Origin: a virus
Reading direction: 5' to 3' (one strand)
DNA length: 30,166 nucleotides
Virus record (IMG/VR): IMGVR_UViG_3300045999_011062
Coordinates: 1 to 30,166 of that record
Shown here: positions 2 through 29,789 of the stretch, piece by piece
How positions within the stretch are numbered: the first letter of the stretch is position 1
Layout of the letters: the number at the start of each line of letters is the position of its first letter
Position numbers and translations under genes: made by a program
Notes under the pieces: generated by a model
What the model saw: the letters and a program-made list of their open reading frames with translations, nothing else
What the model was told of the DNA's origin: nothing
The model's database searches: none

Positions 2-220
2 GGCATGTTGCCGGGCTATGATGCCAACAGCCTGCTGAAATATACGGTGAATGATCAAGATCAATTGAACTTGACTCGCAACATCAACAATCATGTGGTC
101 GAGCTCTGGGTCAACAAAGAAGCTGATCTAGTGGTAGATATCAAACAAGACGGCATTCCCGTATGGCAGCGTGTGAACCGCGGTGGCAGCACTACTATAA
201 CTATTATACAGCGTCAATAA
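2..220 (+). CDS. C-terminal part of a gene cut by the window edge, probable phage structural protein
   Basis: The frame is open to the left edge, so this is most likely the end of a longer protein; the ATG at 5 is probably internal. The visible ~72 residues are polar and look beta-rich (VVELWVNKEADLVVDIKQDG, then a Thr/Ile-rich tail ending IIQRQ), with no membrane segment or catalytic motif. It lies just upstream of holin-like genes on the same strand, where phages often end a structural block. The family is not recognised. Its TAA stop (218-220) is also the first half of a TAAATA promoter-like box. Confidence 0.55.
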   Translation, partial: GMLPGYDANSLLKYTVNDQDQLNLTRNINNHVVELWVNKEADLVVDIKQDGIPVWQRVNRGGSTTITIIQRQ

Positions 221-247
221 ATAACTGTGTAGATTATAGGAGGCCCC
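218..247 (+). promoter_or_regulatory. TAAATA late-promoter-like box and strong RBS for the holin-like genes
   Basis: TAAATA at 218-223 overlaps the TAA stop of the preceding gene. It is followed 24 nt later by the ATG at 248, with an AGGAGG Shine-Dalgarno core at about 238-243. The box resembles the core of the T4 late promoter TATAAATA. This is the member of the box family with a conventional leader on the + strand. Confidence 0.55.
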
Positions 248-529
248 ATGGGCGACATTTTCAAAATCATCGGTGATCTAGGTTTCCCCATTGCAGTGGC
301 CTTGGCCGGTGGATACTTTGTGTATCTAACCATTAAACTGTTGCTGCAAGGTGTGCTGGGATCCATCAACGGCATGAAGGGCATTATCATTGCCTTGGAC
401 AATCGTGTAAAAACCATGAACCATGACGTGGTGCGCATTGACACCATTGTGTCAAATGCTCTGGGACTTAAACCTGATGTGGATCGTATTGCACGAGCCG
501 ACGGTAAGTCAGATGCTAGGAGAGATTGA
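248..529 (+). CDS. Small membrane protein with coiled coil, holin-like (first of a related pair)
   Basis: This 93-residue protein has a short N-terminal amphipathic stretch, one hydrophobic segment (about residues 11-35, GFPIAVALAGGYFVYLTIKL) and a heptad-like, charged C-terminal half. That layout matches BhlA/UviB-type holin-like proteins. It aligns by eye with the protein at 710-1054: both have a GFPI motif before the membrane segment and a conserved IAL-x2-R-x3-M-x2-D-x2-R pattern after it. The start has an excellent AGGAGG. Its stop overlaps the next start (TGATG). A role as holin or antiholin is inferred from topology and from the endolysin and spanin genes about 3 kb away; it could instead be a structural membrane protein. 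Confidence 0.55.
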   Translation: MGDIFKIIGDLGFPIAVALAGGYFVYLTIKLLLQGVLGSINGMKGIIIALDNRVKTMNHDVVRIDTIVSNALGLKPDVDRIARADGKSDARRD

Positions 530-723
530 TGCTGTATGTTGATTATAACTGGGACCTGACTCCCAATACCATAATTCCAGATTCTGAGTTGAACACTGAT
601 CAGTTGAACTGGAAACCCGGAGACTATTTTCAAGTTCAAGAACACAACGGAAAAAAATTCTTACGCAGAGTTGATCCCTCGCTGCAATTTACTCTAGGCG
701 GAAACGATAATGGACGTGGTTGA
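529..723 (+). CDS. Small hypothetical phage protein
   Basis: This 64-residue acidic protein begins MLYVDYNWDLTPNTIIPDSE and contains a WKPGDYFQVQEHNGKKFLRR stretch suggesting a small beta-barrel or SH3-like fold. I chose ATG 529 over TTG 526 because AGGAG lies 7-8 nt upstream and the ATG overlaps the preceding stop as TGATG. It is sandwiched between two related holin-like genes and overlaps the second by 14 bp, so the three are translationally coupled. I do not recognise the family and see no membrane segment. Confidence 0.6.
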   Translation: MLYVDYNWDLTPNTIIPDSELNTDQLNWKPGDYFQVQEHNGKKFLRRVDPSLQFTLGGNDNGRG

Positions 724-1054
724 ACTCATAAACAAATACGGCTTTCCCATTGTGATGGCCGTGGGCATGGGATGGATTATCAAGTATGTGTGGGAGTGGG
801 CCACCAAAGAAGTCAAGCCTGTAATCGGCGAAGCCAACGGTGTGTTGATTGCACTTATTGATCGTATCAGAATGTTGGACAATGATTTGATCCGTTTAAA
901 TCAAAAAGTCAACACTGTGCTGCATCTACGAGGCAAGATTATTGAATCAGATCGTGTGATGGAGCAGGTCAAAGTTGAACGCGAAGCCGCTGATCAGTTC
1001 AAAAAAGCTGTGGCTGATGATCCCCATGCTGAAGACAACACCAAGAAAAAATAA
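710..1054 (+). CDS. Small membrane protein with coiled coil, holin-like (second of a related pair)
   Basis: This 114-residue relative of the protein at 248-529 has a YGFPIVMAVGMGWIIKYVWE membrane segment (about residues 10-30). A long amphipathic helix follows, with the same IAL-x2-R-x3-L/M-x2-D-x2-R pattern, and the tail is Lys/Glu-rich. The gene overlaps its upstream neighbour by 14 bp. Its stop codon abuts the stop of the convergent cyclase gene with no spacer, inside the A/T palindrome AAAAATAATTATTTTT. The pair could be holin and antiholin, or two subunits of one membrane complex; this is inferred from topology only. Confidence 0.55.
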   Translation: MDVVELINKYGFPIVMAVGMGWIIKYVWEWATKEVKPVIGEANGVLIALIDRIRMLDNDLIRLNQKVNTVLHLRGKIIESDRVMEQVKVEREAADQFKKAVADDPHAEDNTKKK

Positions 1055-3118
1055 TTATTTTTCGTGGGCAATAAATTCGCCCTGCCAATTGGCCGGTAAG
1101 TCCTGCTGTTTCATGAACTCACAGCGTTCGGTCCACATGTGATAATACTTGTCCATTTGTCCATCAAATGATCCCGCAAGTTCTTCACACAGTATAGCGG
1201 CAGCATCAAACTGCTGTTCTCGATACAAAGCATGCATCTTGTTGTGTGTTTCTTTGGCGCGGTAGTATTCTTTGTCATCGCCTTTCACCCGCAACACAGT
1301 GTAGATCAAGTCAGCTACTGTTTTGCCCTTGGGCTGTAGGTTGTCCAACAACAGGTAGAAGAAGTCATTGGCAGTTCGGTTGTATGTTTCAGCACCAATG
1401 ATACACAGCACACCATAGGCCTTGCATCGCGCTTCTAGTCGTGCGGCTGTTGATACCATGTCGCCCAAGATGTCATAACCGTGTCGTTGTGTGGAGCCCA
1501 TTTCGCCTATGAAGCCAATGCCGGTGTTGCAACCCCAACCCATGGCAGCTGGAGGCAAACCTTGTGCTTCCATGGCCTTGGTATACTCATCCACAGCATC
1601 CAGCATTTCAAGACCAACTTTGACAATGGTGTGTGCATGATTGGGATCTTCAATGGGTGCGCCGTGTATGTGCATGGACGCATCGCCCACATACTTTATG
1701 ACCATGCCCCGGTTGTCTAACATGGGTTGTGAAATAGCATCCATGTAGCCGTTCATGTATTTTGTGAGTCCTGCTACATCATCGCCGTAGTGTTCACCGA
1801 TGGGTGTGAATCCACGCAGATCTGAAAACATCACTGATACATCTTTGCGCACACCTTTCTTGATTAGGTCTGGATCTTTCTGTAGCATCTCTACCACTTC
1901 TTTGGAGCAGTAACCTGCAAACTGTTTCTTTATGGCTTGCTTTTGGAGGAACTCTGAGACGAACTTGACACCATAGGCATGCAAAGCGACCAAGATTGTG
2001 CCACCTGCAAGGGCAGTAGCGTCGAATAACCATAAAAAGCCATGATAAGCATACCAGCTACCAACCACGGAGCTACCAACCAACACAACAGTCGTACCCA
2101 GCCCAACATAAGTCCACCTCGTTAAAAATAGCAACAGCAATCCGCCCAGTGTTATTGCAAGAATTTCAGCGCCGTTTGCATAGTCGGGACGTTGAATCAT
2201 GCGGCCTGCAGCCACTGTGTCTACTACAGCGGCTTGCACGAAGTGCGGATAGACTTCTCCTCTAGCAGTTGCGACGGGGTTGTTGAGCCCCCTCGCGGTA
2301 AGTCCGACGATAACAATTCCACCTTGGAAGTCCTTTGGCAAATTAGCCAAGGAATGTTGGGTCGGTCGGGATGACCAATCCACCCAGATTCTACCGAGGT
2401 CGTCTGTTGGAATTTTTCCAAACTTCGGAATTCTAACGGCTTCAATGATTCCGTCGTTGACCCTAACCTGGAAAGAGGGGTCGCCGGCAGCGACTCTAAA
2501 GGTTTCGAGACTGATCGAGGGGTAGAGTCTGTCACCGACTCTAGCGACCATGGGGATTCTGCGCACCACCCCGTCGATTTCAGGCAGAGTGTTAGCAATA
2601 CCAATACCAGCGGCTGTTTCATTGATGCTCCTTACATTGGGTTGAATAGCGGCATAGGGTATGCCAGGTTCTCCTGTGCCTATCACGCTCACACCTGGTC
2701 TAAATGGCTCTACAGTGCTTTTGACCTGATCGTTGGTGGCAGTGTGTGGCAACACCACAGGAGATTCACGCAACACACGTGCCAGTGCCGAGTCTTGACC
2801 TGCACGATCCGCATCGGGCATGAACACGTTGAATACCACTAGACCTGCATTGCGTTGATACAGATCCTGTATGATTTTGGCATATTGACCACGTGGAAAA
2901 GGAAACTGTCCCAGACTTTCTAGAGCAGCATCGTCGATATTGACCACATGAACTTGATCACTGGTTTTTACTTCTGTGCTGGTGATTAGAGTATCAAAGT
3001 AGCGCAGTCTCACTGATTCCACAAATGCAGGATCACTGATTCTAATACCTACTACCACAGCCAATGTGATCACGGCTGTCCATGCACTGGTTATTATTTT
3101 TGTAAATTTTTGTGCCAT
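1055..3118 (-). CDS. CHASE2-domain membrane adenylate cyclase (class III)
   Basis: The protein has 687 residues from ATG 3118; a GTG six codons upstream is possible but lies in the promoter-like box. Numbered from that GTG: one membrane segment (17-33), a CHASE2 extracytoplasmic sensor domain (about 40-315), three membrane segments (321-340, 345-361, 367-388) and a class III cyclase domain (about 430-600). The two metal-binding Asp are D439 (FSDLRGFT) and D485 (YVGDAS). Both adenine-specifying positions, K481 (VIKYVGD) and D555 (YDILGD), indicate ATP rather than GTP. R566 of the transition-state pair is present, but the usual Asn before it is Ser (GDMVSTAARLE), as I recall from some bacterial CHASE2 cyclases. 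The expected product is cAMP. The gene follows the spanin genes, an unusual place for a signalling enzyme. Confidence 0.93.
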   Translation of the reverse strand: MAQKFTKIITSAWTAVITLAVVVGIRISDPAFVESVRLRYFDTLITSTEVKTSDQVHVVNIDDAALESLGQFPFPRGQYAKIIQDLYQRNAGLVVFNVFMPDADRAGQDSALARVLRESPVVLPHTATNDQVKSTVEPFRPGVSVIGTGEPGIPYAAIQPNVRSINETAAGIGIANTLPEIDGVVRRIPMVARVGDRLYPSISLETFRVAAGDPSFQVRVNDGIIEAVRIPKFGKIPTDDLGRIWVDWSSRPTQHSLANLPKDFQGGIVIVGLTARGLNNPVATARGEVYPHFVQAAVVDTVAAGRMIQRPDYANGAEILAITLGGLLLLFLTRWTYVGLGTTVVLVGSSVVGSWYAYHGFLWLFDATALAGGTILVALHAYGVKFVSEFLQKQAIKKQFAGYCSKEVVEMLQKDPDLIKKGVRKDVSVMFSDLRGFTPIGEHYGDDVAGLTKYMNGYMDAISQPMLDNRGMVIKYVGDASMHIHGAPIEDPNHAHTIVKVGLEMLDAVDEYTKAMEAQGLPPAAMGWGCNTGIGFIGEMGSTQRHGYDILGDMVSTAARLEARCKAYGVLCIIGAETYNRTANDFFYLLLDNLQPKGKTVADLIYTVLRVKGDDKEYYRAKETHNKMHALYREQQFDAAAILCEELAGSFDGQMDKYYHMWTERCEFMKQQDLPANWQGEFIAHEK

Positions 3119-3131
3119 CAAATATTTATGG
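3119..3131 (-). promoter_or_regulatory. TAAATA box directly upstream of the cyclase start
   Basis: On the minus strand ATAAATATTTG runs straight into the ATG at 3118. TAAATA occupies 3128-3123, four nt from the start codon, and there is no Shine-Dalgarno sequence between. If it works like a T4 late promoter, the message would be leaderless or nearly so. Confidence 0.5.
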
Positions 3132-3146
3132 AACACCAGTGTGCTG

Positions 3147-3413
3147 TTACTTCACATTGTTGTGGATTCGCTTTTGTTGTTGATACCACTCTTGCCAGCC
3201 CTGTGTTTTTTCAGCACATTGATAGTAGAGCGAATAGTTTTGTATCACAGTTTTCAACATGTCTCGAAGACTGTTTTTGCCATCATCCACAACCAACAGT
3301 TCGGGGCAGCGTTCCAACAACACAGCAGGTGCAACAGGAAATTCTTGCTTGACTGGAACCGCAGTGGAACAGCCAGCAAGAACAACTGCTAGAGAAAAAA
3401 TCAACGCTTTCAT
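3147..3413 (-). CDS. Outer-membrane spanin lipoprotein (Rz1-like)
   Basis: This 88-residue protein has a lipoprotein signal, MKALIFSLAVVLAGCSTAV, with lipobox LAGC and the acylated Cys at position 15. The rest is a short Pro- and Gln-containing periplasmic part. Its ATG overlaps the stop of the Rz-like gene as ATGA, the classic Rz/Rz1 arrangement. In spanin systems the outer-membrane lipoprotein binds the inner-membrane partner and fuses the two membranes in the last step of Gram-negative lysis. It is longer than lambda Rz1, but the lipobox and position make the call firm. It also implies a Gram-negative host. Confidence 0.85.
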   Translation of the reverse strand: MKALIFSLAVVLAGCSTAVPVKQEFPVAPAVLLERCPELLVVDDGKNSLRDMLKTVIQNYSLYYQCAEKTQGWQEWYQQQKRIHNNVK

Positions 3414-3895
3414 TTTGCACCCTTTCTCTGTTGTTCAATTGCTTTGTTCATACGTGCAGCTTCGTTGTGAACTTCTAAAACTTCTGCAGGGATCTTGCAA
3501 TTGTCTACTTCTTTGATGACTTCTCGGTCCACGTATTTTATCAGTTCATCGGCTTTTTCTTTGATGACCTTGGTTTGAGTGACCACTTTGGTTTCTACCA
3601 CTGTATTGACCTTGGCACTTTCTTTTTTGGCTTCTTCTAATCGAGCTTCAACTTCTCGAACTTTTTCACGCCACAACATTTCTGTGGAGTAGCCTCCCTT
3701 GAAATACACACCTGACAGCAGCACAATCACCGACACAATCTGTGCTATCTTGATGTGCGGGGCAAATGCAGGCACAAATCTTATAAGGTATTTCAACAAG
3801 AAACAGGTCAGCACAGTGGACACAATGCCCACAACCAAGACCATGTTTACAACAAATGCCAGAAATGCGTCAGGTAAAAAGTGCAGCACCCACAT
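3410..3895 (-). CDS. Inner-membrane spanin (Rz-like)
   Basis: I place the start at ATG 3895 (161 residues), with GGAGG 8 nt upstream; the frame extends further up but overlaps the endolysin. Two hydrophobic segments (about residues 10-35 and 48-65) are followed by a long charged helix (about 75-120, VREVEARLEEAKKESAKVNT) and a Lys/Glu-rich tail, as expected for an i-spanin coiled coil. It sits between endolysin and Rz1-like lipoprotein genes and shares an ATGA overlap with the latter. Two membrane segments rather than one is unusual for Rz, so part of the protein may have another role. Confidence 0.75.
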   Translation of the reverse strand: MWVLHFLPDAFLAFVVNMVLVVGIVSTVLTCFLLKYLIRFVPAFAPHIKIAQIVSVIVLLSGVYFKGGYSTEMLWREKVREVEARLEEAKKESAKVNTVVETKVVTQTKVIKEKADELIKYVDREVIKEVDNCKIPAEVLEVHNEAARMNKAIEQQRKGAK

Positions 3896-3899
3896 GGCA

Positions 3900-4514
3900 T
3901 CAACCTCCGAATACGTGAAGTGCGTGTTCGTAGTGTTTGATTCTGTCTTCCAGGCCAATGTAGCCACCGTTGATCACTCGAGTCATGGTCTTGATGTCAC
4001 CAGCATCGGCCCAACGGTTCAAGCTGTTGGTTTCCCAGAACCAGCAGGCACTTTGCACAGCGCCTTCAAAGGTGCCCAGGTATTCTGTGATTTGTTCCAC
4101 TGGGGTTTCGATTGACTCACCAAAGGCCTTGTAGTTGTTTTTGCCTGTGAGCTGAATCAATCCACGACCACAATAGCGCCAGCCATCGCCCGATGCTTCG
4201 TCGCCGTTGCCCATGCGATTGGCATAGACTCTGTTGGCAATTTTTTCTGGCTTGAGTGCGTATTGTGCTGCCAGTTCATCAGTGGGAAAATACTTGGGAA
4301 ATGTCTTGCGCAGGCTCACAGCTTTGTAACTCAAGTTTTCTCTCAAGAACACAAAATTCATGCTTTCATGAGCACACTGTGCAATGAACGATGCCACTCG
4401 TTGTGGGGTGTCAATGCCATACTCTGGCAGTAGGTCATTCAATGCTGCTACCCAGTAATCCAGGTATGCGTTGTTACCGATACAGCTTTTTAATTGTTCA
4501 CGGGTGATTTGCAT
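3900..4514 (-). CDS. Endolysin, glycoside hydrolase family 19 (chitinase/lysozyme-like)
   Basis: The 204-residue protein has GH19 hallmarks: IAQCAHESMNF carrying the first catalytic Glu (about residue 49), an REN Glu soon after, YANRMGNGD and the GRGLIQLTGKNNY loop (about 136-148). Phage GH19 enzymes cut peptidoglycan glycan strands. There is no signal peptide, so export through a holin is expected. It is the first gene of the endolysin-Rz-Rz1-cyclase run. Its start has an AGGAG Shine-Dalgarno held inside a strong hairpin, and a TAAATA box lies 29 nt upstream, suggesting late, translation-limited expression. Confidence 0.92.
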   Translation of the reverse strand: MQITREQLKSCIGNNAYLDYWVAALNDLLPEYGIDTPQRVASFIAQCAHESMNFVFLRENLSYKAVSLRKTFPKYFPTDELAAQYALKPEKIANRVYANRMGNGDEASGDGWRYCGRGLIQLTGKNNYKAFGESIETPVEQITEYLGTFEGAVQSACWFWETNSLNRWADAGDIKTMTRVINGGYIGLEDRIKHYEHALHVFGG

Positions 4515-8557: not shown

Positions 8558-9526
8558 TTATTTGTTGGGTGTAATTCTACGAGCAATGGGTTGCCAGGTC
8601 TGTTGTAATCGTGCCATGGCAGCTCGAACTCCTGCAGCACTGTGCTCTTCGGGAGTGATATACATCATGTTTTCACGGAATCGAATACCTGCTTCGGCTG
8701 AACGAATTGCAGGCACAAATTGATCATGATACCATGTCTGTATTTCCTGTGGTGTGCCCGGGGGTAGCACAATGTTCCAGCAGCCATGAATACTTAGTCC
8801 TGGCGCTGCCTTGCTCATTAAAGGCACATGCTCAAGACCGGGCAGGCTACGTGTGTCTGCAATGCCGATGAATTTGAGTTTGCCGGCTTGCACATGCGGA
8901 TAGCCCACTGCTACGGGTGTAACACCAAACTCAACATGTCCGCCCATGACATCCAGTAAAGCCTGTGCAGGACCTTTATACATCACTGTTTCCAGTCTGT
9001 CGCCTCCGGGCACACGCAGTTTGTCCACCAGATATTCCACTGCCAGTTTATGGCCGCCGCCACCAATGGCCACTGTGAGTGGGCGCTCTTTGGCGCGAAT
9101 CGCAGCCACAAACTCTTCGGGTGTGTTTATCCGTGAATTGGGATGAGCCCAAAATGCCAAGGGTGATCTGGCAATATTGGCCACAGGTTCCAGATCCATG
9201 GGATTGTAGCGTATCATGTCGCGATACCAAATTTCCGGTGTGACCCAATTTGACTGGCAGGCTGGCACCGAAATAGTGTGTCCATCTCGGGGCACTGTGA
9301 CAAAGTGATTGATGGCAATGTTGCCGTCTGCGCCGGGACGATATTCGGGCACAAACTTTGCGCCGGTCTTTTTCTCCACAATGTCGGCCACAATACGAAA
9401 TGAAATTTCATTTCCTGCACCGGGGCCATTGGGAAATACCACAGTGACTGGTTTGGTGGGCTGCCATGCTGCTGCAATAGCAGGAAGTGTGACAGCAAAG
9501 ACAGCTAATAATTTTTTGATGTTCAT
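8558..9526 (-). CDS. Tripartite tricarboxylate transporter substrate-binding protein (Bug/TctC family)
   Basis: The 322-residue length is typical of the family. A Sec signal peptide (MNIKKLLAVFAVTLPAIAAA) is followed by WQPTKPVTVVFPNGPGAGNE, the family's first strand and ligand loop, then YRPGADGNIAINHF. Such periplasmic proteins bind carboxylates or other small acids for TctAB transporters, or act in signalling. No TctA or TctB membrane gene is in the window, so the phage protein would have to use host components. AAGGGA upstream is a plausible RBS. It heads the coupled run with the sulfotransferase-like, oxygenase and SGNH genes. It is probably acquired from a host; this family is greatly expanded in Betaproteobacteria. 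Confidence 0.9.
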   Translation of the reverse strand: MNIKKLLAVFAVTLPAIAAAWQPTKPVTVVFPNGPGAGNEISFRIVADIVEKKTGAKFVPEYRPGADGNIAINHFVTVPRDGHTISVPACQSNWVTPEIWYRDMIRYNPMDLEPVANIARSPLAFWAHPNSRINTPEEFVAAIRAKERPLTVAIGGGGHKLAVEYLVDKLRVPGGDRLETVMYKGPAQALLDVMGGHVEFGVTPVAVGYPHVQAGKLKFIGIADTRSLPGLEHVPLMSKAAPGLSIHGCWNIVLPPGTPQEIQTWYHDQFVPAIRSAEAGIRFRENMMYITPEEHSAAGVRAAMARLQQTWQPIARRITPNK

Positions 9527-18469: not shown

Positions 18470-18850
18470 TTAGCCTGTGACAGCGTCAGAAATGGTATCG
18501 TCGATGCCTGCAGGTTCTTCGTCTGACACCAACAAGATGTCTTTGTGGTCAATGCGTCGAATAGTATGTTTGCCAGCTTCGTCTTCGATTTCAATGCCCC
18601 GTGTCCAGCGACCGTGCGCTACACAAATCCACTGCCCAGGACTGATTTCTTGTTGTTCGGGGCCCACTGCATAGACTTGTCCCCAGCGCGGACGAATTCC
18701 GCCGGCTTTGCCGTTGTCGTTGAGCAAAATGATGCCTGAACTAAGTTGCCTTCCTGAAAAATTCATGTCTGATACAATGACATGATCCTTCAGTGGTTTG
18801 AATTGATGCTTGTTGAAGCGATGCGGTTCAAATGAAAGTTTCTTTTCCAT
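18470..18850 (-). CDS. GroES-like co-chaperonin (gp31-type role)
   Basis: This 126-residue protein has the Cpn10 pattern FKPLKDHVIVSDMNFSGRQL, then SSGIILLND as the mobile-loop region, GQVYAVGPEQQEISPGQWIC and a terminal HKDILLV strand. It is longer than GroES (97) by an N-terminal basic stretch and a C-terminal acidic tail. T4 gp31 and similar phage proteins replace GroES so that host GroEL can fold the large capsid protein; the same use is likely here. It lies second in the operon starting at 19307, two nt after the previous gene. Confidence 0.82.
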   Translation of the reverse strand: MEKKLSFEPHRFNKHQFKPLKDHVIVSDMNFSGRQLSSGIILLNDNGKAGGIRPRWGQVYAVGPEQQEISPGQWICVAHGRWTRGIEIEDEAGKHTIRRIDHKDILLVSDEEPAGIDDTISDAVTG

Positions 18851-21628: not shown

Positions 21629-24499
21629 TTATCCTAAAATTGTGCGTTTGGGAAATACAAGATATTTATCGTATTCCTGAGTATTGGAATACATATCTAC
21701 CGGTGCAATAAATCGCATGCTGTTGTGATCAAACGTGGTTGGTGCATCCGAATAAGAACCAGAAGAATCAGTGACACTGATATCTTCGATTTGATAAATC
21801 ACTATGGTTGACCCCACAACAGGAGGTATTGTAAAACTCACATAGTTGGGCAAATGACCATAGTTTACTGTGAAATTGGTATTGTAGCTCTGCAACGTTC
21901 CATTGACTGTCACAGCAATTATTCCAGTGTTTGGCAGCAAAGTCACAGCAAAATTATGTTGGTTACCATCGCCGGAATAAGTTGTGGACGTCAAAACTTG
22001 TCCAGTGGTGTCCAGGCTTGGTGTATCGTATTGATAGCCTTCATACACATCAAATGTTGTTTCTGCTGGGGTAGGCACCCAGGCACCGTAGCTACTGTCG
22101 GCCACTGGGTCCCAGTTTTTGCTCAACAATCTATCTAGTTCGTAACGATCAACTTCAAAGTCAATCAAATTCAATCGCTCGCCAAACTTGGTTCTGATAT
22201 AATAAGCAATCTGATCACCTTTGCCTGGCTTGGCATAGGCCAACACCCACGAAGGAGTAAATCCCAAAACCTGTCCATTGGCTTGTTTCGATGTCATCCA
22301 CAAAGGCAACACGTTATCAACTTCTCCCACTGTGTCAATTACTTGATCCCGCATGTTGATCAAGCTGTTGGGATAAACAGTGCTGACTTCGGTGCTGTCG
22401 TTTTCATTTATGGGATATGGCAACGTTACTTGTTTGCTGACACTTTGTCCTTGATTGTTAAGCAAGTTATCAATTACTCTGCTGTAGACCACTTCGTAAA
22501 TCACTTGATCTGCGCTGTTTCTGGCCTGTGCAACTCGTATCTCGCCCAGTGTTAAATTTTTCCAATAATGATTTTCGTAAAGACTACTGACGTAATCGGC
22601 ATAGGTAGCAGCAGTCAGACCAAAGGCATGATTATACACCACTCCAGTAGCTCGTCCAAAGTTTGGATCGTCAGGACGATACAGCAAATCAGGTTTGAAG
22701 ATGTCAGAGTTTTGTAACAAACTGTCAATGAGTGCACGATCGTTGTCCGGGGGCATGGCCTCAATATACAGATTGTCATAGGGCTCGTTGTAAACACGTT
22801 TTACAGTAATGCTGAATGTTTTGCTAGCATTAATCAATCCATTCACACTGAACACTTGAACCACAAACTCATGCTTCATGTCAAAAGTAGTTTCAGTGTC
22901 TTGACCAGTGATGCCCAGATCGTTCATTGTGACATCAAATGTTGTGGTTCCTGTGTCCAACGCAAAAGTATTGAAACTTGTGCGACCTGCAATTTCGCCC
23001 GATGGCAACAACTGTAGGCCCTGCGGCAATGATGAATTACTGCCACTGAGTAATTGATATTGCAACGGTATTCCTGCTGCATTTTCAGCAGCAACATACA
23101 GTGTGCTGGTTGCACCATTGACAATGGTGCCAAGATTGCTGGGAACCAGCCATACGATTTCAGTGTTGACTGGCCCAGTTATGGTAAGACTGTATCGATA
23201 TTCATTGTAGATCAACGGGTCAATGTCTTTGCTGATTCTCACAGTGAATTCATAGTTCAGTTGATTGGCTCCTAAATTGGGTATATAGCCATACAACCAG
23301 CCAGAATTTTGATCCAATACCAGGCCAGGTATGCCTGCACTGTCACCAGCATCGTAGATTATTTCGTAATCAACTTGATCCCCGTCAAGATCTAGTCCGT
23401 TGAATCGATAAGCAAACCAATTGTTGTCGCGAACTGTGCCAATGCTGCCTTCTGGGTTGGTAATGATCGGCGGTCTAGATGGTGTGACATCAGCAGTAAC
23501 AAAAGTATTGTCAGCAGTGATCAGTGTGGTATCTGCTGTGAGACTGTTTTTGCTATAAATGTAGATGCTGAATGTTCTAAGCTGGCTGTAGACTCCATCA
23601 GTCAATTCCAAAGTGAATTCGTAGTTTGAATTCACACTCATAGTGCTGAAGTCAAAACTGTATTCATCGTAGCCCTGGCCATCTCTACTGAATCCTGCTG
23701 TGACTTCAATGGGACTCAATGGAGTTATAAATCCTGATATCAAACCTGTTCTGGATATAGAAAGTCCCAGTGGGAAATTTCCACCTACCAGTTTCACTGT
23801 TGGATTTGCATTGGGATCTGGATCTGTGTATTGAATCTGCAGGCCAGTGACCAGTGTTCCGTCATAGAACTGAGCAATTTGTCCAGCAGGCGTAATAAAT
23901 TCTGGGGGGTTGGGGCCAGTAACTGTGAGTGTAAATGTTCGATCTCGAATTTTGTCCAACACAAACTGGCCATTGATAAAGTTTGTTGTGTAGGCTCTCA
24001 CAGTGAATTTGCTGGTTACGTCTTGGCCAACTTCGGTGGGCACACCTTGGATACTGGCCACAGCTTTGGGCACACCAAGAATTAAGCCGTTGTCGGCTAT
24101 TTGCACTCCAGCGGGCAACTGACCTGCTTGAAGATTAAATCTTATGTGCTGACTAAATTCAGCAGTCATTGATCCTGTTGCAGTGCTGAGTTGTATTGGC
24201 GTGGTTGTGAATTCGCTTTCAGTCAACGAAAATTCAGTGCTGTTGTGAACTGCCAACACAAAATATCTAACCAAAGGGCTGATGCCTCCAAATACAGTGC
24301 CAGCAAACATAACGTTGAGACCAGCGTATATGCCCTGTGTGCTGTTGCATGTAATTCTGTTGGTAACTCCACTGGTGGCTGTGCACACCACACCAGTGAT
24401 CAGTGGATCAACTGTGGCCAACATGGCCTGCTGATAAAAAATACCTTCGGCAACAGTGCCTAAACTGCCTGCAGGGGTTATCCACTGTGGTTGAGCCAT
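21629..24499 (-). CDS. Large tail-fibre/adhesin protein with repeated Ig-like (He_PIG-type) domains
   Basis: The protein has 956 residues from ATG 24499 (four nt after the upstream stop; the longer frame overlaps that gene). At least four units follow the putative-Ig pattern in which a PxGLxL strand precedes G-x-I/L-x-G: LPAGVQIADNGLILG, FPLGLSISRTGLISG, IPGLVLDQNSGWLYG and LPQGLQLLPSGEIAG. Each is introduced by a TPAGSLGTV-like linker. Unique C-terminal parts include a long polar region and the ending YDKYLVFPKRTILG. No enzymatic motif is visible. It is probably a fibre or baseplate-attached adhesin that contacts the host surface. The repeats make it a good candidate for recombination-driven host-range change. 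Confidence 0.82.
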   Translation of the reverse strand: MAQPQWITPAGSLGTVAEGIFYQQAMLATVDPLITGVVCTATSGVTNRITCNSTQGIYAGLNVMFAGTVFGGISPLVRYFVLAVHNSTEFSLTESEFTTTPIQLSTATGSMTAEFSQHIRFNLQAGQLPAGVQIADNGLILGVPKAVASIQGVPTEVGQDVTSKFTVRAYTTNFINGQFVLDKIRDRTFTLTVTGPNPPEFITPAGQIAQFYDGTLVTGLQIQYTDPDPNANPTVKLVGGNFPLGLSISRTGLISGFITPLSPIEVTAGFSRDGQGYDEYSFDFSTMSVNSNYEFTLELTDGVYSQLRTFSIYIYSKNSLTADTTLITADNTFVTADVTPSRPPIITNPEGSIGTVRDNNWFAYRFNGLDLDGDQVDYEIIYDAGDSAGIPGLVLDQNSGWLYGYIPNLGANQLNYEFTVRISKDIDPLIYNEYRYSLTITGPVNTEIVWLVPSNLGTIVNGATSTLYVAAENAAGIPLQYQLLSGSNSSLPQGLQLLPSGEIAGRTSFNTFALDTGTTTFDVTMNDLGITGQDTETTFDMKHEFVVQVFSVNGLINASKTFSITVKRVYNEPYDNLYIEAMPPDNDRALIDSLLQNSDIFKPDLLYRPDDPNFGRATGVVYNHAFGLTAATYADYVSSLYENHYWKNLTLGEIRVAQARNSADQVIYEVVYSRVIDNLLNNQGQSVSKQVTLPYPINENDSTEVSTVYPNSLINMRDQVIDTVGEVDNVLPLWMTSKQANGQVLGFTPSWVLAYAKPGKGDQIAYYIRTKFGERLNLIDFEVDRYELDRLLSKNWDPVADSSYGAWVPTPAETTFDVYEGYQYDTPSLDTTGQVLTSTTYSGDGNQHNFAVTLLPNTGIIAVTVNGTLQSYNTNFTVNYGHLPNYVSFTIPPVVGSTIVIYQIEDISVTDSSGSYSDAPTTFDHNSMRFIAPVDMYSNTQEYDKYLVFPKRTILG

Positions 24500-24821: not shown

Positions 24822-25145
24822 TTAGTAAGGGCTAAAACTGCTACCGCAGCCGCACGTGGTCTGTGCTTGCGGGTTGTCAATAGAGAAACTGGAACCCATT
24901 AAATCTTCTTTATAATTGATGGTTGCACCTTGCAGATACTGCATGCTCATGCTATCCACCACCACAGGAATATCGGTCAAAACTTCAAAATCGTCTTCGT
25001 TGCGGTCTTCGTCGAATGTAAATCCGTAACTCATGCCCGAACATCCACCGCCCTGTACAAAAACTCTCAGCAAGACTTTGGGATTGTTTTCTTCAGCCAA
25101 CAAGTCTTTTATTTTGGTAATAGCGGATTCAGTTAATGTAATCAT
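24822..25145 (-). CDS. A-type iron-sulfur carrier (IscA/ErpA/HesB family)
   Basis: The protein has 107 residues from ATG 25145 (ATGA overlap with the SOD stop; the upstream TTG start is less likely). All three family cysteines are present: C35 in [12 protein letters not shown], and C98/C100 in TTCGCGSSF. Such proteins carry [2Fe-2S] or [4Fe-4S] clusters to apo-enzymes; HesB-like genes are known from cyanophages. It is translationally coupled to the superoxide dismutase gene. It may help build Fe-S enzymes such as the phage radical SAM protein. Confidence 0.92.
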
Positions 25146-25702
25146 AGTCGTTCGTTGCAAACATCCCAGTCAATGACCTTCCAGATATTGTCCAGGTAAC
25201 GTTCTTTGTCCCACTGATAATCAGTGGCCCAAACATGCTCCCACCAGTCTACTAGCACACAGATATCGGTGCGCACAGCATGGTTGGCTATGGTTTTAAT
25301 CTCTCCGCCGGTGCTGAGATAGACCCAACCCGAGCCCTGAATCTTCATTGCTGCTTCTTTAAAGGCAATTTTAAAATCTTCGTAGGTTTTAAATTTTTCT
25401 TCTATCAACGCAAGAACTGCACCGCGGGGGCGATTGGCACCCTTAGGAGCCCTAAGCTGAGGGAAGAACTTATTATGTAAAAAACTGCCAGCACGATTAA
25501 AATCCGCATTGCCTTCTCCTGCATTATAACGCTTGGCATAACCTTTGGCCAAATGCCCATAATGATATTCTAAACTTTCTTTGCTCAACACTGGCTCAAG
25601 GTCTCGTTCCCCGTAAGGCAAGGGTGTAGTTTCTAGCTTGGCCGGGCGGGTGCTGGCTTCTACTATGTTTATAAAATCATATATTGATGCGGCGGTGTCC
25701 AT
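25142..25702 (-). CDS. Fe/Mn superoxide dismutase
   Basis: This 186-residue protein starts at ATG 25702; the frame extends upstream without a good start. All four metal ligands are present: H47 (SLEYHYGH), H76 (SFLHNKFF), D152 and H156 ([12 protein letters not shown]). [20 protein letters not shown] matches the family's N-terminal domain and [10 protein letters not shown] the conserved second-domain strand. There is no signal peptide, so it is cytoplasmic. It converts superoxide to peroxide, which would protect Fe-S proteins; the coupled IscA-type gene fits that. Residues deciding Fe versus Mn were not resolved. The start is five nt from a TAAATA box. Confidence 0.93.
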
Positions 25703-25707
25703 GTAGA

Positions 25708-25713
25708 TATTTA
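25708..25713 (-). promoter_or_regulatory. TAAATA box, 5 nt from the SOD start
   Basis: The minus strand reads AAATAAATATCTAC directly before ATG 25702, nearly identical to TTAAATATCTGC before ATG 5379. No Shine-Dalgarno. A start six nt past the box falls on the A of the ATG. The 157-bp gap 25703-25859 shows nothing else firm. Confidence 0.55.
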
Positions 25714-25859
25714 TTTCAATGTCGATAACAGGGCACAAACAATTCTTGATGATTTCTGCACACAGCTTGTCTAAACATTGATTGTATTCTTGACAATTTT
25801 TCTATAGTATCTGATCAAATTTTGCTGTGTTTAGTTGTCTGATTTAGGATACCAGCATG

Positions 25860-28776: not shown

Positions 28777-29084
28777 TATTTGAACAGAATCATGGCCATT
28801 AACACAGCCTGAATCATGAATCCAAGCCCAATGGTAATGATATTCAAGGTATCCTTGAGCACCACGGCTCGACCAAACAACAGCATCAGACCAGCCCAGG
28901 CAAACAACACAATATCCAAATTGGGAACATTGTCACTGAGTCCAGTCAGCAATGCCAACAAGGTAGGAATGGTGGCACAATGAATAACAATGGTTGCCAA
29001 CCATCCCAGGGTATCTGCAGAAATCTTGTGTAGATTTTCTTTGAAAAAACTATTCAAAGATTCGCTTAGGTTGTTTAAATTCAT
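28776..29084 (-). CDS. Small multi-pass membrane protein
   Basis: The protein has 102 residues from ATG 29084 (TGATG overlap with the SleB gene). Three hydrophobic segments are visible: about residues 26-47 (LGWLATIVIHCATIPTLLAL), 55-72 (DIVLFAWAGLMLLFGRAVVL) and 80-101 (ITIGLGFMIQAVLMAMILF). There is a short charged N-terminus. It could be a holin-type partner for the SleB hydrolase immediately upstream, but it has no family signature. Confidence 0.6.
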   Translation of the reverse strand: MNLNNLSESLNSFFKENLHKISADTLGWLATIVIHCATIPTLLALLTGLSDNVPNLDIVLFAWAGLMLLFGRAVVLKDTLNIITIGLGFMIQAVLMAMILFK

Positions 29085-29665
29085 CAACGCTCTCCGTAAA
29101 AAATATGACGACCGATTTCACCAATTCGAGGTTTGTTCCAATTGGGACTCACATAATCAGCATGATAATACATGGCCTTGGTCATTCCGGGCAACCGGAA
29201 TCCTTCCAGATAGACTTTCTTTGCCACTTCTTCTGATTCACGCCACAGTGGTTTGTGAACAGGCTTGACTTTGTAATTACCTTCGCAATACCAAGAGAAT
29301 TGGCAAATGACTTTTTCATAGATCACATTCTTCTGTGTGACCACGCCGCACACAGAGTTGGCAAAGCGACCAGACTCCACGCGATTCAGCGTAACCTGAG
29401 CCACAGCTACCTTGCCTTCGAACGGCTCTGACGCAGCTTCCCAATAAATGTTGCGTGTCAAACATTCTAGCTCGCGAGTTTTGTCAGCCACAGATACATA
29501 ATTGCCCGAACTCCAGGCAGCATTGGTTTGTTTGAGTTGATCAAATTTGCCGTCCACAATTGAAAACAATATTGCTCCGACAATTGCCAGTGCCAATATT
29601 TTAATACCGACTGAAACAGATTTGCTCAACACTAGTTCTAATTTTGATTTCGATAATGAAGTCAA
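29084..29665 (-). CDS. SleB-type cell wall hydrolase (Hydrolase_2) with N-terminal anchor
   Basis: I choose TTG 29665 (193 residues): AAGGAG lies 6 nt upstream, the same context as the GTG at 19307, while the longer frame to 29776 reads through another small ORF. A membrane anchor lies at about residues 18-36 (IKILALAIVGAILFSIVDG). The SleB domain follows: LECLTRNIYWEAASEPFEGK with the catalytic Glu, then VAVAQVTLNRVESGRFANSV and CQFSWYCEG. SleB enzymes cleave cortex or peptidoglycan glycan strands. A second peptidoglycan enzyme besides the GH19 endolysin suggests a role at entry or as an anchored exolysin. It heads the operon to 27855. Confidence 0.88.
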   Translation of the reverse strand: MTSLSKSKLELVLSKSVSVGIKILALAIVGAILFSIVDGKFDQLKQTNAAWSSGNYVSVADKTRELECLTRNIYWEAASEPFEGKVAVAQVTLNRVESGRFANSVCGVVTQKNVIYEKVICQFSWYCEGNYKVKPVHKPLWRESEEVAKKVYLEGFRLPGMTKAMYYHADYVSPNWNKPRIGEIGRHIFYGER

Positions 29666-29675
29666 AAGTTTCTCC

Positions 29676-29789
29676 TTATGAACCAAACAGGGTTCGTCTG
29701 CGGTGCTCACCATGAGCAACATTGACAAAAAGAATTGGATAGACTTGTGCGTCGAGACCTCGGGCCTTCTTGGCATCTTTGCCTAGCAC
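29676..29789 (-). CDS. 37-residue ORF upstream of the SleB gene
   Basis: Translates as (M)LGKDAKKARGLDAQVYPILF then VNVAHGEHRRRTLFGS, with GTG 29789 as a possible start; the frame is open to 29822. Its TAA (29678-29676) leads straight into the AAGGAG of the SleB gene. The composition looks natural, but the start has no clear RBS and could instead be the remnant of a longer gene. Confidence 0.4.
   Translation of the reverse strand: MLGKDAKKARGLDAQVYPILFVNVAHGEHRRRTLFGS

Follow-up and report, generated by a model that had tools for sequence, protein, structure and literature searches.

A predicted CHASE2-class III adenylate cyclase gene of the phage curli–FecR cassette, next to lysis genes in a T4-like phage fragment

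Few studies have addressed the second-messenger enzymes that phages use in the course of infection. The pairing of a phage cyclase with curli genes was published in 2022, and alphaproteobacterial origins were found (PMC9599517). In the T8SS/curli modules of Melnitz and HTVC008M, of a kind known from pelagiphages, a gene of the phrog_18771 family opens the cassette, and the gene order is CsgF-CsgG-curlin-FecR-curlin-cyclase, with the cyclase last. In bacteria, the CHASE2 cyclases of S. meliloti raise cAMP once an outer-membrane barrel receptor senses a protein (PMC13001267), and part of the bacterial enzymes have FecR neighbours, as in phage (PMC5498481, PMC9239204). FecR adjoins CHASE2 cyclases in Campylobacterota clusters (PMC9239204), a FecR gene is located near cyaD1 in S. 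meliloti (PMC5498481), where the FecR neighbour smc02177 is dispensable for signal perception (PMC5498481), and biofilm is under the control of a FecR-CHASE2 kinase operon in Burkholderia (PMC5192318).

The window analysed here is the whole stretch of 30,166 bases, an IMG/VR fragment of a T4-like phage with clamp loader, PhoH, GroES-like and tail-like genes. Its cyclase shows full-length homology to Melnitz gp104 (45%) and HTVC008M gp019 (34%) and shares with both the CHASE2-cyclase layout and the linkage to FecR and curli genes, whereas in the window, unlike in these two phages, FecR and the cyclase are convergent and the upstream neighbours are lysis genes. The active-site pair is D/S in the window and in Melnitz but S/N in HTVC008M. 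The protein belongs to the same family as PHROG_35576 (E 2e-197, nearly the whole protein covered) without any noticed difference; that family is listed without a function, and its likely function is that of adenylate cyclase of the phage curli/FecR cassette. A search of NCBIfam with the cyclase gave no match, but the family is common, with 483 matches in a single IMG/VR scan. In the tree of viral and bacterial relatives the viral cyclases form one group, with weak support (0.605). With the CyaD1/CyaD2/CyaK-type cyclases of S. meliloti the window cyclase shares domain order and membrane layout, and identity to bacterial CHASE2 cyclases is 25–31% among the matches listed. FecR is present within about 110 bp of the CHASE2 cyclase in 13 of the 80 bacterial relatives among the matches listed, and no curli genes were found beside the cyclases of these 80 listed relatives. 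Bacterial contamination was ruled out, as the window carries clamp loader, PhoH, endolysin and tail-like genes and the homologues are viral; two Acinetobacter ‘phage’ matches were set aside for their apparently chromosomal surroundings (mfd and hscA beside cyaA).

The cyclase gene and its curli–FecR neighbourhood

The cyclase ORF spans 1055–3136 on the minus strand. The ATG at 3118 is the likely start, giving a gene at 1055–3118 and a protein of 687 aa, and the GTG at 3136 is a possible upstream start, giving 693 aa; residue numbers are counted from this GTG. A complete membrane CHASE2-class III cyclase had been proposed in the initial annotation, and this was borne out by the catalytic residues, by Pfam matches to CHASE2 (8e-38, aa 24–334) and Guanylate_cyc (3e-15, aa 431–576), and by an AlphaFold2 model that is confident along the whole chain (mean pLDDT 92) and has the class III fold, its cyclase domain matching P. 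aeruginosa CyaB 3r5g with a TM of 0.89 and an rmsd of 1.7 Å. The predicted layout is an inner-membrane helix, a periplasmic CHASE2 domain, three membrane helices, a cytoplasmic cyclase domain and C-terminal helices. The extracytoplasmic CHASE2 domain is thereby flanked by the N-terminal helix and the three membrane helices (helices at 18–34, 320–340, 342–367 and 373–407), the third of which is prolonged in the model into a long helix that enters the cyclase domain. The cyclase is intact, of class III and under purifying selection, and it is probably active as an enzyme.

What the window encodes is the adenylate cyclase of a widespread and previously described set of phage genes for curli fibre secretion, the curli (T8SS)-FecR cassette of HTVC008M, Melnitz and PMC9599517. 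At 2–220 on the plus strand the window edge truncates a phage gene for a FecR-domain protein, of which the last 72 aa remain; they are 75% identical to FecR of the near relative L005, and the FecR family of the cassette matches PF04773. Because of this FecR tail, the curli cassette is taken to continue beyond the left end of the window, and the full cassette is present in the nearest relatives L005–L007. Two small membrane proteins of the phrog_18771 family follow on the plus strand at 248–529 and 710–1054, with homologues in 70 and 72 viral cyclase loci, respectively, the first of them belonging to the conserved block. At least one of CsgF, CsgG, curlin and FecR was located within 7 kb of the cyclase in 72 of the 82 first-set viral loci, and where 5 kb of flank was available to either side of the cyclase, FecR was present in 116 and CsgG in 113 of 117 viral loci. 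FecR is upstream of the cyclase on the same strand in 184 cases and downstream and convergent in seven, the window included; because the two genes are convergent, FecR and the cyclase do not form one operon in the subclade of the window. The N-termini of FecR, curlin and CsgF are signal-peptide-like, and that of CsgG is lipoprotein-like.

Some smaller observations concern the same neighbourhood. The protein encoded at 248–529 (93 aa) also has a weak YvrJ-like match. This phrog_18771 protein shows 92–97% identity in numerous loci where cyclase identity is no higher than about 65–70%, yet 74% in the near relative L005, a pattern of either strong conservation or exchange. Moreover, a D-Ala-D-Ala carboxypeptidase-like (Peptidase S11) gene occurs in 40 of the 82 first-set loci, often directly 3′ of the cyclase (for example L053:10104–10838).

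The junction between the cyclase and Rz1

As annotated at first, endolysin, Rz and Rz1 genes are located directly upstream of the cyclase, all on the same (minus) strand: a GH19-type endolysin at 3900–4514 (phrog_181, 1e-78), an Rz-like inner spanin at 3410–3967, and an Rz1-like outer spanin lipoprotein (LysC/Rz1-like) at 3147–3413, which adjoins the cyclase and is outside the conserved cassette. The functional link to lysis read from this arrangement did not hold up, and the cyclase is instead linked with curli secretion and FecR genes. In comparison with G001, which is the record of L005 and the nearest long relative, window bases 2–3118 correspond to 104.4–108.1 kb and the window from 3147 on corresponds to 51.2–62 kb, so that two regions about 54 kb apart are joined between cyclase and Rz1, and synteny breaks at 3119–3146, separating the cyclase block from that with the lysis and clamp-loader genes. 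Searching for CHASE2 cyclases beside lysis genes had been proposed as a check. Seventeen of the 33 large related records examined encode a close homologue of the window endolysin, and the distance to the cyclase was 47–105 kb in 16 of the 17 and 7 kb, on the opposite strand, in the other one. The window Rz and Rz1 were near the cyclase in none of the 82 first-set viral loci, none of 12 Rz relatives had a cyclase near Rz, and the exact junction sequence was found in no other IMG/VR contig. In L029 and L036 a GH19 endolysin-like gene does precede the cyclase, at a distance of 4 nt, and gene order varies in the lysis cassettes of L354 and L355; overall the cyclase has no conserved place among lysis genes. 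Hence, because the endolysin is distant in relatives and the junction is a synteny breakpoint, the lysis link was rejected, and we take the position of the cyclase beside lysis genes as a one-off product of local rearrangement, an assembly chimera being less likely. A chimera would join two parts of one genome or of two phages and would affect only the adjacency; the break in synteny at the junction and the uniqueness of its sequence in IMG/VR agree with this, but the junction falls exactly in the 28-base gap, leaving both genes and the promoter core intact, and the order of lysis modules also varies between relatives, which makes such an artefact rather doubtful to us. In either case, a lysis link that vanishes on comparison is a warning against reading function from one adjacency.

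The active site and the D555/S562 pair

The cyclase catalytic core (1409–1846, minus strand) contains D439, K481, D485, D555, D559, S562 and R566. Both metal Asp residues (D439 and D485) and both adenine-specifying residues (K481 and D555) are present, as had been noted initially, and loss of the metal Asp in phage homologues, which would have spoken against a cyclase, was not seen: they are kept in all complete viral and all 80 listed bacterial homologues. At the transition-state positions R566 is retained and Ser562 is found where Asn is usual, although Asn is not a strict requirement of class III. We compared these residues in 223 distinct viral relatives and in 80 bacterial relatives among the matches listed, and the metal Asp, K481 and R566 were invariant in all complete sequences. 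D555 occurred with S562 in 144 of the 223 viral sequences and S555 with N562 in 76, while the remaining 3 were gapped at some active-site columns; all 80 bacterial CHASE2 cyclases among the matches listed, unlike the window, had T or S555 with N562, and no mixed state was found among the viral and listed bacterial relatives. In a tree computed leaving out columns 555 and 562, the D/S sequences formed one group of 146 tips (node support 0.317), with L324 (S/N) as its sister and a joint node support of 1.0. A DNA pattern of the D/S state recovered 136 of the 144 D/S phage loci and was found in none of 76 S/N phage loci, 80 listed bacterial loci and 398 genomes of one phylum; the usual T/N motif was present in 152 of these same 398 genomes. 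Because there is no mixed state, one tree group and a phage-only DNA pattern, the changes at 555 and 562 look coupled and of single origin. As far as the sequences compared can tell, D555/S562 is a fixed, phage-only pair of one clade without intermediates, and this pattern is a new result of the present analysis. The Ser at the Asn position, already pointed out in the initial annotation, is a clade-wide state paired with Asp555 and not a quirk of one copy.

With Ser in place of Asn, the enzyme might work more slowly or yield another product. One case for comparison is Ma1120 of Mycobacterium avium, which like the window cyclase has the adenine-type K and D, keeps Arg and lacks the transition-state Asn, but has Ala instead of Ser, and no CHASE2 or curli context is claimed for it; Ma1120 is an active adenylate cyclase making cAMP, and its cAMP output is drastically lowered when Asn is put back (PMC4215837). 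Since Ma1120 is active with Ala, Ser562 need not mean a dead enzyme. The pair might nevertheless mark a changed reaction, so that the protein would be a slow enzyme, act on another nucleotide, be gated by a signal or be an inactive sensor, and not be an ordinary adenylate cyclase. This would agree with the fixation of D555/S562 in 144 viral sequences and its absence from the 76 other viral sequences, the 80 listed bacterial relatives and the 398 genomes, and with the indispensability of Asn in mammalian cyclase, for which PMC4215837 cites Yan et al. 1997, but the constancy of metal Asp, K481 and R566 in every complete sequence and the behaviour of Ma1120 argue against it, and we consider it unlikely. 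Because the D/S switch is clean and cultured members exist (Melnitz and HTVC008M), experiments could address the chemistry of the enzyme as well as its role.

Late-promoter core and proposed role

A T4-type late-promoter core, ATAAATA, is present at 3123–3129 on the minus strand, 4 nt before the cyclase ATG. Among 196 viral homologues of the cyclase, 66 have the same core ahead of the gene (3.4 expected); it also stands before CsgF in 44 of 132 cases (2.3 expected), and it was found before FecR in 0 of 152 and before CsgG in 0 of 138. Thus the head of the cassette and the cyclase seem to be two late units of their own; this distribution is also new here. The core and its enrichment in homologues support the initial suggestion that the cyclase is made late in infection, and it is from the promoter motif alone that we infer late expression. 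Cores of this kind are located in the window at 25708–25714, 217–223 and 21663–21669 in addition to 3123–3129, and in viral loci L002–L083 and L164–L352. They often end 4–5 nt short of an ATG, and 43% of ATAAATA occurrences are within 1–8 nt of an ATG compared with 13–19% for control motifs of similar composition. Given T4 geometry, a core so near the ATG places the mRNA start at about the start codon, and phages with this arrangement would have leaderless late mRNAs.

We regard it as reasonably probable that the gene is a cassette cyclase moved beside the lysis genes by local rearrangement and that it serves envelope-sensing late cAMP synthesis acting on a host receptor. At a late stage of infection the cyclase would be lodged in the inner membrane of the host, with CHASE2 sensing the periplasm, probably via the secreted FecR protein and the export state of CsgG, CsgF and curlin, and the cAMP made would act on a CRP-type receptor of the host; what it would control is the altered cell surface or host physiology, and not lysis timing as such. 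The cAMP receptor is expected from the host because no cNMP-binding domain was found in 33 large phage records. By analogy, this would be a phage cyclase that reads the periplasm or curli export and makes late cAMP, and the abundance of the family and the retention of catalytic residues by each complete member examined argue that phages gain from making it. Domains, residues, cassette linkage, promoter core and the lack of a recognisable phage receptor are read directly from sequence, and to these we add activity, sensing partner, receptor and benefit by inference. More tentatively, a large clade of T4-like phages may have captured a bacterial CHASE2 cyclase, which then underwent a single-origin switch from T/S-N to D-S, acquired its own late promoter and became a sensor of viral curli export that relays cAMP to the infected cell. 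If true, this would be a trans-envelope viral signalling relay, in which the state of a viral secretion apparatus is reported to the cell by cAMP.

If the position beside endolysin, Rz and Rz1 did reflect its role, the cyclase would be a lysis-timing component whose late cAMP adjusts the envelope of the host or the programme of lysis. The GH19 endolysin-like genes next to the cyclase in L029 and L036, the carboxypeptidase-like gene of 40 loci and the proposal by Buchholz et al. that lysis involves the curli pore of phages (PMC9004378) are in line with this. However, 16 of 17 relatives have the same endolysin far from the cyclase and one has it 7 kb away on the opposite strand, the window Rz and Rz1 are near no other first-set cyclase, and the junction is a breakpoint found nowhere else in the junction and Rz searches. 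Moreover, the GH19 and carboxypeptidase-like genes would favour an envelope theme over lysis timing, which we therefore hold to be improbable. That the cyclase counters host defence by flooding or mimicking cyclic-nucleotide immune signals, as had also been suggested, is very improbable: purifying selection on the active site would suit it, and PADLOC gives a weak PycC match (3e-11), but this match is confined to the shared cyclase domain and is expected of any class III cyclase, K481 and D555 specify adenine whereas Pycsar signals are cCMP or cUMP, no Pycsar effector was recognised beside the cyclase, in the window or in conserved neighbourhoods, the late promoter is late for counter-defence, and CHASE2 and the constant curli linkage would be left unexplained.

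The rest of the window has several further genes of note. A second cell-wall hydrolase besides the endolysin is encoded at 29084–29776 (PF07486, 6e-24), and genes for an Fe/Mn superoxide dismutase, an A-type Fe-S carrier and a GroES-like co-chaperonin are located at 24822–25738 and 18470–18850. A TctC-type periplasmic binding protein, encoded at 8558–9526, is an unusual phage gene; 21–23 TctC-type matches each, the best at about 30% identity, were found in three of the four Burkholderiales/betaproteobacterial genomes tested (L142, L143, L151 and L157), which hints at a Burkholderiales/betaproteobacterial host.
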